NCBI GenBank assembly: GCA_017999895.1
Contig: JAGNKY010000003.1
Coordinates: 124,001 to 188,000, forward strand
Direction: 5' to 3'
DNA: 64,000 bases
DNA from: Bacteroidales bacterium
GTDB lineage: Bacteria > Bacteroidota > Bacteroidia > Bacteroidales > VadinHA17
Below the pieces are notes generated by a model. That model was given only the letters and a program-made list of their open reading frames with translations, did not search any database and was not told where the DNA came from. The number at the start of each line of letters is the position of its first letter. Position 1 is the first letter of the stretch. A program made the translations under genes and the position numbers. Below are positions 23,790 through 29,518 of this stretch, piece by piece.

Positions 23790-25085
23790 GTGAAAATAAT
23801 ATCCCATATCAAAATTTTTGTATCAATATTGATTTTTATTTTGTATTTCAAATCAGGTGTTTCAGGTCAGGAACCGCTATATGACATGATTTTTGATAAG
23901 CGAATAAAGACATTACAATTGTACCGTGAAGGATGGAACCTTTGTTATCCTGTGATAAAACTTAATGGTCAGGAAAGGCTTTTTCTAAATTTCGACTTGC
24001 TTGCCGACATCCCTGAGTCATATTATTATACCATTATTCACTGTGACAAAGACTGGAACGAATCTTCAATATTTCCTTCTGATTATCTTACAGGCTTTAT
24101 GGATGATCAGATTCAAAATTATCGTTCCTCTTTCAATACAAAGGTCAATTATTACCACTACAGTGTGGTAATTCCTAATGAACATATAAGCATAAAACTA
24201 TCAGGAAATTACGTTATAAAGGTTTACCCGACTGGTGAACCTGGAAAACCTGCGTTTACAAAAAGGTTTATGGTATCAGAAGAAATAGCTGGAATAAAGG
24301 CTTATATTCAGAGGCCTCTTCCTGGAGAATTCTATAATACATGTCAGCAAGTGGGATTAAGTGTAAAAATTACACAAATTTCAGTCAGAGATCCATATAA
24401 TGAAATTTTCACTTTTATTTTCAGAAATGGTAATTTCAACGAGGCAAAGGAAAATCTTAAACCCGATTTTGTTATCGGGAACGAACTAAAATTCAACACA
24501 TTATCAAATACTAATATTTTTTATGCAGGTAACGAATACAGATACTTCGATATCAGGTCAATTCATTATACCACTGAATTTGTCAGAAAAATTGATTATG
24601 TGAATGGTCTGTATCACTTTTTTCTCATGCCTTCAGATAACAGAGAGTTTAAACCTTATTTTTTCCGGCAAGATTTTAATGGGAAATATTATGTAGCTGT
24701 TCAGGAGGGCCGGGACATGGATACTGAAGCAGATTATGCTTATGTTTATTTCACTCTTCCGTCGTCCAATGAGATACCTGGTGGAAAAATGTATATTTCC
24801 GGTGCATTAAGCAACTGGTCTTTTACAACAGAAAACCGTATGTCGTATAATTATGAAAAATCTCATTATGAAGGTACTATGCTTTTAAAACAGGGATGGT
24901 ACGATTATGAATATATCTTTCTAAAAGATGGTCAGAAGAGTGCTCCACCTTCATTTTTCGAAGGAAATCATTATGAAACCGAAAACGACTATCTTATTCT
25001 TGTTTACTACCGTAATCCAAGAGAGAGGTTCGACAGGCTTATAGGTTCCGCTATAGCAAATTCCTCAAAAAAAGAAAATTTTTGA
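23790..25085 (+). CDS. Type IX secretion system plug protein (DUF5103)
   Basis: 431 residues starting at GTG 23790, with a signal peptide (to about residue 26, SGVSGQ). The DUF5103 pattern is visible: YYTIIHCDKDWN, LSGNYVIKVY, YFDIRSIHYTTEF, and a C-terminal carbohydrate-binding-module-like part (YISGALSNWSFTTENRM, WYDYEYIF). In Flavobacterium this protein is the plug that closes the periplasmic side of the SprA translocon when no substrate is engaged. It supports a working T9SS in this organism. Confidence 0.85.
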   Translation: MKIISHIKIFVSILIFILYFKSGVSGQEPLYDMIFDKRIKTLQLYREGWNLCYPVIKLNGQERLFLNFDLLADIPESYYYTIIHCDKDWNESSIFPSDYLTGFMDDQIQNYRSSFNTKVNYYHYSVVIPNEHISIKLSGNYVIKVYPTGEPGKPAFTKRFMVSEEIAGIKAYIQRPLPGEFYNTCQQVGLSVKITQISVRDPYNEIFTFIFRNGNFNEAKENLKPDFVIGNELKFNTLSNTNIFYAGNEYRYFDIRSIHYTTEFVRKIDYVNGLYHFFLMPSDNREFKPYFFRQDFNGKYYVAVQEGRDMDTEADYAYVYFTLPSSNEIPGGKMYISGALSNWSFTTENRMSYNYEKSHYEGTMLLKQGWYDYEYIFLKDGQKSAPPSFFEGNHYETENDYLILVYYRNPRERFDRLIGSAIANSSKKENF

Positions 25086-25565: not shown

Positions 25566-26165
25566 TTATTTCTTTTCAGCCCTGTATTTGTCATTAAGAG
25601 CTTTAAGTACCTTATAAGTAATGTCGAGCACACTATCGGCATACAGAACAGGGCCACCGAAACTTTTTCCCAGTATGAACTGATAATTATATTCTTTCTT
25701 GTTTTCCTCTAAAAACTTAGTGATGTAATCAATTATCTGTCTGTTCATTACTTGTTCCTCTTCCAGGAGATCGCTCTGTAGTTTATCTCTGAGTGAAATC
25801 AGCTCCTGTTGCTGTTGCATAAGAGATTGTTCCATTTGCTGGGCAGTAGCTCTGGTAATCAGACCTTTGCTCACTTTTTCCTGGTAATCTTTTACACTAC
25901 TCTCATACTGTGATCCTTTTGAATTTAGTTCGGCTTCGGCTTTTCTCTGTTTATCAAGAAGATCGTTTCTTCTATCGGCAAACATATCGAAGTTAAAAAT
26001 AATTGTATCAATGTTAACATAAACGATCCCATGTGATTCCGCTACGGTACTACCGACAGGCTCCATTACCCCTTTTGTTTTTTTACCTGTAAAATGTAAT
26101 ACATATAAAGCTGCTACTGCGACAAAAAGCAGGGCGAACAGAATTATTGACAGTTTCTTCATCAT
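25566..26165 (-). CDS. OmpH/Skp-like coiled-coil protein with membrane anchor
   Basis: 199 residues. A hydrophobic N-terminal helix (about 5-25) is followed by the OmpH pattern (IVYVNIDTIIFNFDMFADRRNDL), a long coiled coil, then YNYQFILGKSFGGPVLYADSVLDIT. Skp-type proteins hold unfolded outer-membrane proteins in the periplasm. This copy is longer than the pair at 35679-36754 and may stay anchored to the membrane. Confidence 0.82.
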   Translation of the reverse strand: MMKKLSIILFALLFVAVAALYVLHFTGKKTKGVMEPVGSTVAESHGIVYVNIDTIIFNFDMFADRRNDLLDKQRKAEAELNSKGSQYESSVKDYQEKVSKGLITRATAQQMEQSLMQQQQELISLRDKLQSDLLEEEQVMNRQIIDYITKFLEENKKEYNYQFILGKSFGGPVLYADSVLDITYKVLKALNDKYRAEKK

Positions 26166-26289: not shown

Positions 26290-27294
26290 TTAAAATTCAG
26301 GACATGGTATTGCTCTGATTCTTTTTTTGTTCCCTGTTATTGAAGATGAAGTAAACTCATAAATAATTGAAATTTCATGAGCTCCTCCTGAAGAGGTTAT
26401 AAGATTTGAAATTGTAAAATCGTAACTATAGCCTATATGTAGTTTGTCGGTTTTTATCCCAATCAGACCGATTACTGCATCGCCTGCCTGAGATGTCATA
26501 AAAGGAATTCCGCGGTACCATAATCCCAGTATAATAGGGCTTTTATAGTAATAAAGGCCTATGTCGGTCTGATAGAACTTACTTTGTGTCTGGAAATTTA
26601 CAGCTATTGAAAATGCCTCCACCATTTTTTTCATGAGACGTGTTTTCCCTGAAATTCTAACTCCTCCATACATATTAAATTTTATTGGCAATTTTGATTC
26701 GTCACCATAAAATGATTGTTTTGGTGTAAAAAGATGGTCGAGTGTAAAACCTGCCCAAATCTGGTCGTTATAAGCAAGTGCTGAAGTAGCAAAATCCACA
26801 TCTGCAACTTTATCGAAAGGAGGCGGAGTTACGGGCGGCGTAGTACCGCTTCCTGTTATCTGGCTTGCAAAAACAAGTTTATAAATATCCAGCCCAAGGT
26901 AATAAAACTTGAAATGAACGCCGGGCCTGATATGCCAGTCCTGTGAAATGTTAAAATCATAGGAATAAAGTATTCCTATATTTGTTGTACTCAGGTCGCC
27001 CGATCCGGCCACATCGTATGTAGCAAGTAAACCCACACCTGAGTTGAAATTTGGCATTGCCTTGTCGAATGATATACTATAAGTATGAAAAACGCCCGGG
27101 ATTGAAGGCCACTGATTACGATAGTTTATTCCCAATCTAAAATCTTCTGTAGAGCCAGCAAATGATGGAGAAAGGTAAAGCTGATTAGCATAGAACTGAG
27201 AAAATGTTGGATCCTGTCCGAATGCATTACCTGCAAAGAGATAAAAAAACAGTATTAAAAAATATTTATACCTTCTTAGCAAATCAGGATACAT
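26290..27294 (-). CDS. PorP/SprF family T9SS outer-membrane protein
   Basis: 334 residues with a signal peptide (to AFGQ near residue 27) and the family start DPTFSQFYANQLYLSPSFAGS. Beta-strand patterns of an outer-membrane barrel continue to YSYDFTISNL and IIYEF. SprF-type proteins are needed to export and attach T9SS substrates that carry type B sorting domains. The gene lies just behind a gene for such a protein (27469-28746), so they are probably a cognate pair. Confidence 0.9.
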   Translation of the reverse strand: MYPDLLRRYKYFLILFFYLFAGNAFGQDPTFSQFYANQLYLSPSFAGSTEDFRLGINYRNQWPSIPGVFHTYSISFDKAMPNFNSGVGLLATYDVAGSGDLSTTNIGILYSYDFNISQDWHIRPGVHFKFYYLGLDIYKLVFASQITGSGTTPPVTPPPFDKVADVDFATSALAYNDQIWAGFTLDHLFTPKQSFYGDESKLPIKFNMYGGVRISGKTRLMKKMVEAFSIAVNFQTQSKFYQTDIGLYYYKSPIILGLWYRGIPFMTSQAGDAVIGLIGIKTDKLHIGYSYDFTISNLITSSGGAHEISIIYEFTSSSITGNKKRIRAIPCPEF

Positions 27295-27468
27295 TGTGTA
27301 TTTATATGACGAAAGTAATCATTTGTTTGAATTTATTCCACTTTGTTAAACGTATTTTCTAAATAAAGGGTACAAAAAAATGAATATTTTTAACTAATAT
27401 TCATTATTTATAGACGAAAGCGAATATTTCTTTGATAAAAATTCGGATAGAAAAACTTTCTTAAATAG

Positions 27469-28746
27469 TCATCTATATTTTATAAGAATTACATCTCCTG
27501 TTTTAGTGAAGGTTTCGCCGTTTTTATATCGTCCGGTTACCTTCCATATATATACACCAGGTTCGCAGAGGTTCCCTTTGTTGTAGCCATCCCACCCTAT
27601 GTTTATATCATTGGTTTCAAATATCAGTACTCCTGCTCGGCTGAATATCTTCAGGTTATAGTCGACGACTCCGTTTGCAACAGGGTGAAAAATATGAGCC
27701 GAAGCATCGCTCGAGGCGGAATAATATCCACCTGTGGGACCTTGCATATTCGGGATGAAAGCATTAGGAAACTCAATATAATATGCTGAACTTCCGGAAG
27801 AATATATAATTGAAGCTGTATCAGCACATCCTTTATCGTTCCATACAATTAATTTGATATTATATTTACCTGATTTTTCATATTGATGAACAGGTTCGAA
27901 TACTGTTGAAGTTTTTCCATCGCCAAAATCCCATTTATATCTTACTGCATTATCAGAATAGTTAATAAGTCTTATTTCATTATCTGCAGACTCACGTTCT
28001 GATACCTGGATATCGAATCGAGCCGAAGGAGGTGCATTAACTTTTATTTTTCCGGTCGCATAGGATGAACTCCCGTCAGTTCCGAATATTTTAAGTGTAA
28101 CCGTATATTCTCCCGGTATGTTATATACCCATTCCGGTTCTTTAACGAATGAAGTTCCGCCATCGCCAAAGGACCATTCACATGAATTAAAACCAGTTGA
28201 GGTATTACTGAATTTAACTTTTAAAGGTATGCAGCCTTCCGAAGGGATAGCCGTAAAAGATGCAGATATGTTCATACGAAGATTTGTATTTAATAAACCT
28301 TCCGATATATTCACCGATGCTTCCGTTTTTCTTAATGTATCGGTCATTGTTGCCGGAGCCTTAATCATATCCACTGTCGTTGTTTCTGAAGACATTTTCA
28401 CACGTTTCAGAGTATCAAACGCTTCGTGTTTTTTGTAAGTCCCTTCTTTAATTTGGACCTGTTCAGGGGATGGGGCATTTATTATCGAAATAGAGTCAGT
28501 TTTGATTTCTTTATTAACTTCTATATTGTTGTCCAATTGTTTTTTAGCTGATCCGGTCAAAAGAAGAAATGCAAGAGCAGCAATAGCCACTGAAGCTCCG
28601 GCCAGATAATAGATATTTAATTTTGCCGGATTAAAATGCATAAACTCTTTTTTTGCCAGCCTCTTCATGAGTGTCTGCTTTACTACTGCATCAGGAATGA
28701 CTTCAGCATTTTCAAGCTTGCTCCTGAAAAGCTCCTCAATGTCCAT
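27469..28746 (-). CDS. Anti-sigma-like membrane protein with PKD and T9SS type B domains
   Basis: 425 residues from the ATG at 28746 (an earlier ATG at 28767 is possible). Residues 1-43 are charged and cytoplasmic-looking, 44-64 form a single membrane helix, and 65-160 are a low-complexity Ser/Thr/Lys stretch. Two PKD domains follow (about 161-236 with WSFGDGG, 241-316 with WDFGDGK). Last is a gliding-motility-associated C-terminal domain, 325-425 (FPNAFIPN ... LKIFSRAGVLIF ... GWDGYNKG ... PGVYIWKV). Proteins with this type of head and helix beside an ECF sigma gene usually act as anti-sigma factors. The sorting domain is normally found on secreted proteins with a cleaved signal, which is absent here. 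Confidence 0.78.
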   Translation of the reverse strand: MDIEELFRSKLENAEVIPDAVVKQTLMKRLAKKEFMHFNPAKLNIYYLAGASVAIAALAFLLLTGSAKKQLDNNIEVNKEIKTDSISIINAPSPEQVQIKEGTYKKHEAFDTLKRVKMSSETTTVDMIKAPATMTDTLRKTEASVNISEGLLNTNLRMNISASFTAIPSEGCIPLKVKFSNTSTGFNSCEWSFGDGGTSFVKEPEWVYNIPGEYTVTLKIFGTDGSSSYATGKIKVNAPPSARFDIQVSERESADNEIRLINYSDNAVRYKWDFGDGKTSTVFEPVHQYEKSGKYNIKLIVWNDKGCADTASIIYSSGSSAYYIEFPNAFIPNMQGPTGGYYSASSDASAHIFHPVANGVVDYNLKIFSRAGVLIFETNDINIGWDGYNKGNLCEPGVYIWKVTGRYKNGETFTKTGDVILIKYR

Positions 28747-28774
28747 ATTTTTTCTTTCGCTGCCCAATTCCCAA

Positions 28775-29353
28775 TTACTTATTATTATTGTTTTCGGAAG
28801 CTGGATAATTCTTCTTTATTGTTCTCAGTATCTCGAGTCTTTCGCGTATAGCAGCTTTTGCCCTGCTATATTGTGATTTGGAAGTATTTATATCGATGCC
28901 AAGCATCTCCGAAATTTCTTTGTGTTTATAACCTTCAATGGCATACAGATTAAATACCATCCTATAGCCAGGTGAAAGCTCATTTAAAACTCTGATAAGC
29001 TCATCAGCAGTAAACATATCTTCCTCAAAACTTTCTGCTCCTGTTTCTATTGACACGTATTCTTCAATATCAATATTATATCTATGCTTCAAATTTTTAT
29101 GATACGAGGTTATCGCAGTGTTTACCGCAATTTTTCTTATCCATCCTATGAAAGAACCCGTTCCTGAATAATCTTTTATATTAAAGAATATTTTCAAGAA
29201 AGTCTCCTGAAGCATATCTTCTGCTTCCGCCTTGTCGCTTGCATAGCGCATACAAACACCTAACAGCAGGCGTGAATACCTGTCGTATAGCATCTGTTGT
29301 GCCTTCCTCTCGTGACGGGAACAACCTTCAATTATCTCTACGTCACTCAACAT
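28775..29353 (-). CDS. ECF-type RNA polymerase sigma factor
   Basis: 192 residues. Region 2 is visible as YDRYSRLLLGVCMRYASDKAEAEDMLQETFLKIFFNI (shown only as landmarks YDRYSRLLLGVC and AEDMLQETF), and region 4 as LSPGYRMVFNLYAIEGYKHKEI with helix-turn-helix KHKEISEMLGID. The stop codon is 28 bases before the start of the anti-sigma-like gene, so both are surely cotranscribed. It probably directs transcription of envelope genes, perhaps its own operon. Confidence 0.93.
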   Translation of the reverse strand: MLSDVEIIEGCSRHERKAQQMLYDRYSRLLLGVCMRYASDKAEAEDMLQETFLKIFFNIKDYSGTGSFIGWIRKIAVNTAITSYHKNLKHRYNIDIEEYVSIETGAESFEEDMFTADELIRVLNELSPGYRMVFNLYAIEGYKHKEISEMLGIDINTSKSQYSRAKAAIRERLEILRTIKKNYPASENNNNK

Positions 29354-29518
29354 TTGCCTTCGACAATTTTAAGACAATCATATAACCTCAATGGTTGCAC
29401 TGTTTAAAAAATGTTTATAAAATTAACGGATTAATTCAACTCATTATTTCAATATAACAAAGGTCGGGAAAAATTATAAAATTACATTGATAAATTTTAT
29501 AAGTAAAAATTGATTGCA

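Follow-up and report, generated by a model that had tools for sequence, protein, structure and literature searches.

The Dma proteins have been described as anti-sigma factors with an anti-sigma domain, a transmembrane helix, a disordered tether, and a C-terminal β-barrel, encoded adjacent to sigma factors of the extracytoplasmic function (ECF) group ECF21, and Dma3 has the sigma factor as an N-terminal fusion (PMC13088901). Dma1/Das1 reportedly targets NigD1, acting through nigD1. In P. vulgatus, a sigma factor is turned on when its barrel-type anti-sigma factor is lost, and this sigma factor is induced on exposure to an antibacterial toxin, which was read by the authors as envelope stress (PMC9308784). 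With regard to the type IX secretion system (T9SS), type B C-terminal domains (CTDs) bind cognate PorP/SprF proteins (PMC9143113, PMC12618676), and the SM6 promoters of F. psychrophilum serve T9SS genes as well as a single pair of ECF sigma and anti-sigma genes (PMC9723704). For the described route of sensing the state of the T9SS in Bacteroidota, PorA-PorXY-SigP, no link is known between the surface and the inner membrane. We analyzed a three-gene locus in a 64,000-nucleotide (nt) stretch of a Bacteroidales genome (the whole stretch is called the window; coordinates are positions within it). The protein encoded in the middle of the locus (the middle protein) is probably, as judged from sequence, a Dma-like anti-sigma factor with a T9SS sorting domain where the barrel would be, and this domain probably docks in the neighboring PorP. 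The locus contains the following features.

28775..29353, minus strand: ECF sigma factor gene, 192 amino acids, identified by Pfam and NCBIfam matches and by sigma comparison and tree
27469..28746, minus strand: gene for the middle protein, a probable Dma-like anti-sigma protein with a T9SS type B-like CTD, 425 amino acids
28618..28746, minus strand: cytoplasmic head of the middle protein, residues 1-43, two predicted helices; predicted sigma-binding domain
28558..28614, minus strand: its single inner-membrane helix, residues 45-63, with the positive side on the head side
28279..28554, minus strand: its disordered periplasmic tether, residues 65-156
28027..28269, minus strand: its first PKD domain, about residues 160-240
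27793..28026, minus strand: its second PKD domain, about residues 241-318
27472..27783, minus strand: its type B-like sorting domain (CHU_C), about residues 322-425, with SRAG replacing NRWG (cargo Trp absent)
26290..27294, minus strand: gene for a PorP/SprF-family outer-membrane barrel, the predicted likely docking partner, with the C-tail PCPEF and one Cys (codon 26302-26304)

The original prediction made on this DNA had described three same-direction genes for an ECF sigma factor, the middle protein, and a PorP/SprF protein; its coordinates were right, and all three genes lie on the minus strand. The sigma factor matched Sigma70_r2 (54.2 bits), r4_2 (58.7 bits), and the NCBIfam model sigma70-ECF (99.2 bits versus a cut-off of 42.9), and the PorP/SprF identity was clear (213.2 bits versus 90.55). 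The two PKD domains claimed for the middle protein were recovered as a PKD_4 match (100.2 bits) and as two β-sandwich domains in an AlphaFold2 model, whereas the claimed type B sorting domain was recovered in part: CHU_C scored just above its cut-off (29.1 versus 27 bits), but TIGR04131 remained below its own (cut-off, 35; 20.0 bits in the protein scan and 22.6 in the genome scan). The likeliest start of the middle protein is the ATG at 28746, and the open frame runs 7 codons further, to a TTG. The window's genome contains SprA, GldK, and seven PorP/SprF proteins including that of the window. It also has eight TIGR04131 matches, seven above the cut-off and the eighth being the middle protein, and four of the seven other CTD proteins have a PorP gene next downstream.

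The AlphaFold2 model, built on 36 sequences (mean predicted local distance difference test score [pLDDT], 66.8; predicted template modeling score, 0.40), has helices at residues 3 to 13 and 20 to 36, the membrane helix at 45 to 63, disorder at 65 to 156 (pLDDT under 50 across this tether), two confident PKD domains, and a C-terminal β domain, with low to moderate confidence for the head and the CTD. A model of the CTD only was poor (mean pLDDT, 57.2), the 50 matches listed from a Foldseek search with the full model were all generic, to Ig, adhesin, and PKD-type folds, and a profile search against solved structures matched the PKD region but neither the head nor the CTD.

Similar head/PKD/CTD proteins, for which the original prediction had proposed a search, gave 1,218 matches at an E value of ≤1e-3 among 7,991 candidates scored, of which the weak ones may be PKD-CTD cargo. 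The best 120 of these were 426 to 456 amino acids long, with PKD annotated in all 120 and CHU_C in only 32, and the architecture of the middle protein is accordingly no accident of a single genome. In these homologues, positive charge was greater before the helix than after it (119/120), the best hydrophobic window had a mean of 2.08 while the next best averaged 1.02 and reached at most 1.61, and the tether spanned 99 to 114 residues in the 119 that were measurable, which we estimate to be long enough to cross the periplasm if extended. An alignment with 35 homologues showed the head, helix, and CTD to be conserved throughout, and mean column identity over the 36 sequences was 0.82 for the CTD, 0.69 for the head, 0.64 for the helix, 0.65 and 0.67 for the PKD domains, and 0.30 for the tether. 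The cytoplasmic head and single membrane helix that had been claimed thus agree with the modeled helix, the charge bias, and the much weaker second hydrophobic window, and the 43 conserved residues before a full-length helix point to a membrane-anchored protein rather than ordinary Sec-secreted cargo. Taken together, the sequences support an inner-membrane-anchored, anti-sigma-like protein.

Some match to the middle protein occurs in 57 of 60 related genomes, many of these being PKD-CTD ends of large cargo. At one locus (L108:5024-6049), the head, helix, and CTD are kept with a 174-residue low-complexity tether, both PKD domains are lost, and no sigma gene lies within 4.9 kb upstream; we gave it little weight because of the missing sigma gene and the low-complexity tether. 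An apparent natural variant lacking the CTD (G016:C54) was discarded, as its sequence is cut by a contig end.

Further evidence for an anti-sigma function comes from the gene pairing of the head. A profile made from an alignment of 25 heads matched 28 of 392 genomes of the phylum, the window's genome among them. Outside the order, each of the 26 readable loci carries a same-strand sigma-like gene upstream (the 27th match, L151, is a frame with stops and was left out). As assigned by reading, the proteins of 14 of these loci terminate in an outer-membrane barrel and those of the other 12 have short tails. Within the order, 98 of 294 genomes matched the profile, and the 29 best loci of these (L152 to L180) all have an ECF sigma gene upstream, with gaps of up to about 350 nt; by the same kind of reading, 19 end in PKD domains plus a CTD, 7 in a barrel, and 2 in Ig-like domains plus a divergent CTD, and 1 is cut by a contig. 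When barrels were checked against Pfam, L178 scored above the cut-off, L161, L163, L169, L126, and L129 scored below it, and L165, L171, and L174 had no match. Besides, the heads of CTD-ended and barrel-ended proteins of the same class aligned in hhalign with a probability of 97.6 across 40 columns. Among the sensor-type loci from L039 to L094, L107, and L108, four show no sigma gene; three of them (L084, L092, and L093) start within or just before the gene, and L108 is the exception to an otherwise conserved pairing in relatives.

It could be argued that the middle protein is no more than T9SS type B cargo whose N-terminus happens to be unusual and that the sigma gene is a chance neighbor, since PKD domains, a type B-like CTD, and an adjacent PorP are a common cargo layout. 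The region before the helix, however, greatly exceeds the length of a typical signal peptide n-region, and the head is conserved, is common to barrel-ended proteins, and stands beside a sigma gene in all 26 and all 29 of the loci described above, which makes a cargo role very improbable.

Two variations on the head were also seen. In L171, L174, L176, and L180 it is duplicated in tandem before the membrane helix, and double head matches occur in other genomes too; therefore, one such protein might hold two sigma factors. In L176 and L180, the same head is combined with Ig/PKD_6-like domains and a divergent CHU_C-like end.

The sigma factor itself provides a second line of comparison. In four Bacteroidales genomes of family f26, which we take to be Bacteroidaceae, the best match to the window's sigma factor is followed by a barrel-ended single-pass protein in all four cases (L209/L204, L210, L211/L207, and L212; barrel above the Pfam cut-off), and two of these loci adjoin NigD-like genes. 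SprA is absent from three of the four genomes, the fourth being outside the genomes scored. In a tree of 83 chosen sigma factors, built by a quick method with long branches noted and end types labeled by reading, the 77 from head-bearing loci separated from 6 other ECF sigma factors (Shimodaira-Hasegawa-like approximate likelihood ratio test support, 97). The window's sigma factor fell among the CTD types, between which barrel types from the same order are dispersed, and the starred branches force no more than one origin of the CTD type. We infer that the window's sigma factor is ECF21-like and belongs to the lineage accompanying Dma-type anti-sigma factors, a likeness drawn from the published description of Dma. 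The window's genome also encodes a barrel-type paralogue (L213), with a sigma factor 46% identical to that of the window and a next protein matching OMP_b-brl_2 (36.1 bits versus a cut-off of 27). A further sigma paralogue (L218, G000:C12:113766-114269) is followed by a 195-amino-acid single-pass protein with no recognized outer end, and elsewhere (L216:403-2061, minus strand) an ECF sigma factor, a membrane helix, a tether, and an outer-membrane barrel share one 553-amino-acid frame, comparable to the described Dma3.

As for the outer end of the middle protein, the Trp of the cargo motif xxRWG is missing from all 120 homologues listed and from all 59 locus sequences scored (overlapping sets; one more sequence could not be fitted), and the residue at this position varies over eleven residues in the 120. 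A comparison set of cargo proteins, chosen by similarity, has the Trp in 21 of 22 cases, and by eye it is present in the 22nd as well. Loss of the Trp was nonetheless rejected as an absolute mark of a sensor, as four of the seven other CTD proteins of the window's genome also appear by eye to lack it. Since nearly every genome of the order has the T9SS (275 of 294), its co-occurrence with the head says little (Fisher P = 0.04, or 0.009 without G511, uncorrected for kinship and with barrel-type heads included). We did not retain it as evidence; 2 of the 98 head-matching genomes lack SprA (G547, which is 82% complete, and G511, which has a frame with a stop).

Downstream of the middle protein, the neighborhood contains several further features.

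27310..27317, minus strand: box TACTTTCG before porP (TATTTTCG in many relatives), a possible separate promoter
25566..26165, minus strand: gene for an OmpH/Skp-like periplasmic chaperone, a conserved neighbor whose membership of the module is uncertain
23790..25085, plus strand: gene for a homologue of the T9SS plug protein (PF17116, 148.7 bits), located near the module

The sigma gene, the middle-protein gene, and porP are all present in 29 of 29 loci of the same genus (L010 to L038). Among 59 loci with both sigma and middle-protein genes, drawn from L039 to L122 and including some of the same genomes, porP was found in 52 and ompH in 46, some loci being cut by contig ends; in the 42 loci with at least 6.5 kb downstream, each was found in 41. 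The plug gene was rejected as part of the module, since it lies near it in only 1 of the 42 loci with room (L039). The PorPs linked to the sensor end in PCPEF in 47 of 51 cases, the other four being cut or split. A Cys within the last 16 residues is found in six of eight cargo-linked PorPs and in none of the six other PorPs of the window's genome; thus, a C-tail Cys is not unique to the PorP of the sensor, and PCPEF is the constant feature.

One further element lies upstream of the sigma gene.

29373..29399, minus strand: ECF-type promoter element TGCAACC-N17-GTC, with its first T 46 nt from the sigma ATG; predicted autoregulation

Upstream regions of sigma genes fit TGCAAC plus GTC[TA] in 47 of 54 cases; in 46 of these 47, the distance from the first T to GTC is exactly 24 nt, with the ATG 44 to 52 nt away. 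The remaining seven have [AT]GCAAC with the second box altered or missing. The motif has one match in the window against 0.06 expected, and scanning the genome gave 5 matches against 0 in a reversed control with the strict form and 10 against 3 with a relaxed form. A wide regulon was not retained, as strict matches beyond the window's own site fall in or across open frames. Two near-matches, with two mismatches, stand before genes for a secreted-looking protein and a membrane protein (L190 and L192; G000:C11:19970 and C19:4554), which are possible regulon members, and the membrane protein resembles a sugar transferase by eye. In many relatives, AATGACCTTTGTCATT is found about 100 to 115 nt before the sigma ATG, either an inverted repeat or a housekeeping-type box, and it is degenerate in the window (29451-29470). 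The minus strand shows no terminator-like site in the interval from the anti-sigma gene to porP, although one weak site lies inside the anti-sigma gene; therefore, transcripts starting at the sigma promoter could run on into porP, increase PorP, and so complete a feedback loop.

From these observations we propose, with a probability of roughly one half, that the Dma-like anti-sigma protein docks by its sorting domain in the adjacent PorP/SprF and that the sigma factor is held while it is docked and released when docking fails. The sorting domain would be the sensor and PorP/SprF its likely receptor. In this scheme, the head (residues 1 to 43) would bind the ECF sigma factor, and the tether would cross the periplasm so that the CTD could reach an outer-membrane receptor, likely the neighboring PorP/SprF; a CTD would need such a receptor, whereas in the barrel-type relatives the outer end itself sits in the outer membrane. 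With the CTD docked, the sigma factor would be held, and failure of the T9SS or of outer-membrane docking would lead to proteolysis of the anti-sigma protein and release of the sigma factor, which would then drive extra transcription through porP and restore docking capacity. We prefer release on docking failure because the P. vulgatus sigma factor is on when its anti-sigma factor is lost and is induced by toxin.

The same anatomy would also serve the opposite logic, in which the anti-sigma protein is pulled on or exposed to proteolysis once PorP or the T9SS captures the CTD, and the sigma factor reports successful T9SS traffic. Cell-surface signaling offers a precedent, as TonB-dependent systems relay an outer-membrane signal to an anti-sigma factor. 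Activation by docking is nevertheless somewhat unlikely, considering that the sigma factor of the published barrel-type relative is turned on by anti-sigma loss and by a toxin whose effect was read as envelope stress (PMC9308784) and that porP raised by the sigma factor would give positive feedback.

Several observations weigh against the proposal that loss of docking is sensed. The below-threshold TIGR04131 score, the scarcity of CHU_C annotations (32 of 120 homologues), and the absent cargo Trp suggest that the T9SS may not handle the CTD. The head profile is not significant on the f26 barrel proteins (the two that it touched had E values of 0.37 and 0.82), and its best match in the four f26 genomes (E value, 0.066) is to a protein of a different kind. 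Although L108 retains head and CTD, none of the open frames over 4.9 kb upstream is a sigma gene. With the strict promoter motif, the genome yields no convincing target beyond the sigma gene itself, and the sigma factor may not control porP and ompH because both carry promoter-like boxes of their own, ompH being preceded by the housekeeping-like box TATATTTG. Although PorP follows in 8 of 21 cargo-type loci, the other 13 show no porP, and porP was not found in L079, L086, L093, L107, L119, and L120, with 2.5 kb or more downstream in each. Finally, unrelated genes are also conserved nearby (a PRODH-like gene in 46 of the 59 loci and a DivIC gene in 44), so the adjacency of porP is in part inherited with a stable neighborhood, and we rejected conserved synteny as proof of a sigma-PorP link because the neighborhood is stable as a whole.

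Part of this evidence would also suit a periplasmic sensor operating without the T9SS, with PKD domains and CTD borrowed from cargo to sense a periplasmic ligand or stress and porP as a passive neighbor. The CTD score below the TIGR04131 cut-off, the lack of the cargo Trp in 120/120 listed homologues and 59/59 scored locus sequences, the near-equal conservation of unrelated neighbors, and the absence of porP from six distant loci all favor such a sensor. It is unlikely, however, given that the CTD is the most conserved part of the protein (0.82), that L108 keeps the CTD though both PKD domains are lost (while also lacking the sigma gene), and that relatives have an outer-membrane barrel at the same end.

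We also considered a trans-envelope gauge of T9SS motor force, since the C-tail Cys of SprF bonds to GldK (PMC12635249). The CTD would be locked in a dedicated PorP bonded through its invariant C-tail Cys to the moving PorK/GldK track, movement of the motor would strain the tether, and the anti-sigma domain at the inner membrane would turn this strain into release of the sigma factor; with its cargo Trp lost, the CTD would stay docked rather than be secreted. GldK of the window's genome has two Cys besides the lipid Cys, and we regard the force gauge as quite improbable.

In this locus, a domain directed to the outer membrane and a predicted anti-sigma domain lie on one chain with the likely receptor encoded beside it, which makes the question of how Bacteroidota sense T9SS state testable with three genes. 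Besides, the outer end of the Dma leash may be a swappable module, either a barrel or a sorting domain, and it is suggested that the sigma factor itself can be fused to the leash. In the literature on anti-sigma factors together with type IX secretion, PKD, sorting domain, gliding motility C-terminal, or PorP, the combination was not found, as judged by the titles and abstract openings listed.

Among known systems, the pairing of a type B CTD with a cognate PorP/SprF, often from adjacent genes, resembles SprB-SprF and PG1035-PorP (PMC12618676, PMC9143113, PMC12635249). The SprF carrier likewise has Cys in its C-tail, as Cys-X-Cys, whereas the window's PorP has a single Cys (PCPEF). Unlike the middle protein, those cargos have a Sec signal peptide and leave the inner membrane. 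The PorA-PorXY-SigP system of Porphyromonas gingivalis is similar in that a CTD protein signals to an ECF sigma factor controlling T9SS genes (PMC7712824), but PorA, which has a signal peptide and resides on the surface, acts in trans via a two-component system, while the sensor and predicted anti-sigma domain form one polypeptide here. The F. psychrophilum SM6 ECF-type promoters likewise tie an ECF sigma/anti-sigma pair to T9SS gene control, although the accessible part of that report describes no anti-sigma architecture and no link to a CTD (PMC9723704). P. vulgatus M0N98_03760 and its sigma factor share an anti-sigma protein predicted to span from cytoplasm to outer membrane, with envelope stress as the likely signal, but M0N98_03760 is β-barrel-ended, and the accessible part of its report mentions no T9SS sorting domain or PorP (PMC9308784).

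The closest likeness is to Dma. The middle protein has a predicted anti-sigma head, one inner-membrane helix, a long disordered tether, a C-terminal end directed to the outer membrane, and an adjacent ECF sigma factor; this sigma factor groups with those beside barrel-ended proteins fitting the Dma description, and the head is profile-related to barrel-ended proteins of the class. The C-terminal end, in contrast, consists of two PKD domains and a type B-like CTD with no β-barrel, and a separate PorP/SprF barrel is encoded next door; we therefore withhold the strict Dma label, since the barrel is a defining feature. The original prediction, which knew of no described system of this form, overlooked the head-helix-tether layout that the Dma family shares, while a sorting domain in place of the barrel is indeed undescribed. 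Thus, the leash principle is known from Dma, and the new part is the sorting-domain end with its PorP neighbor.

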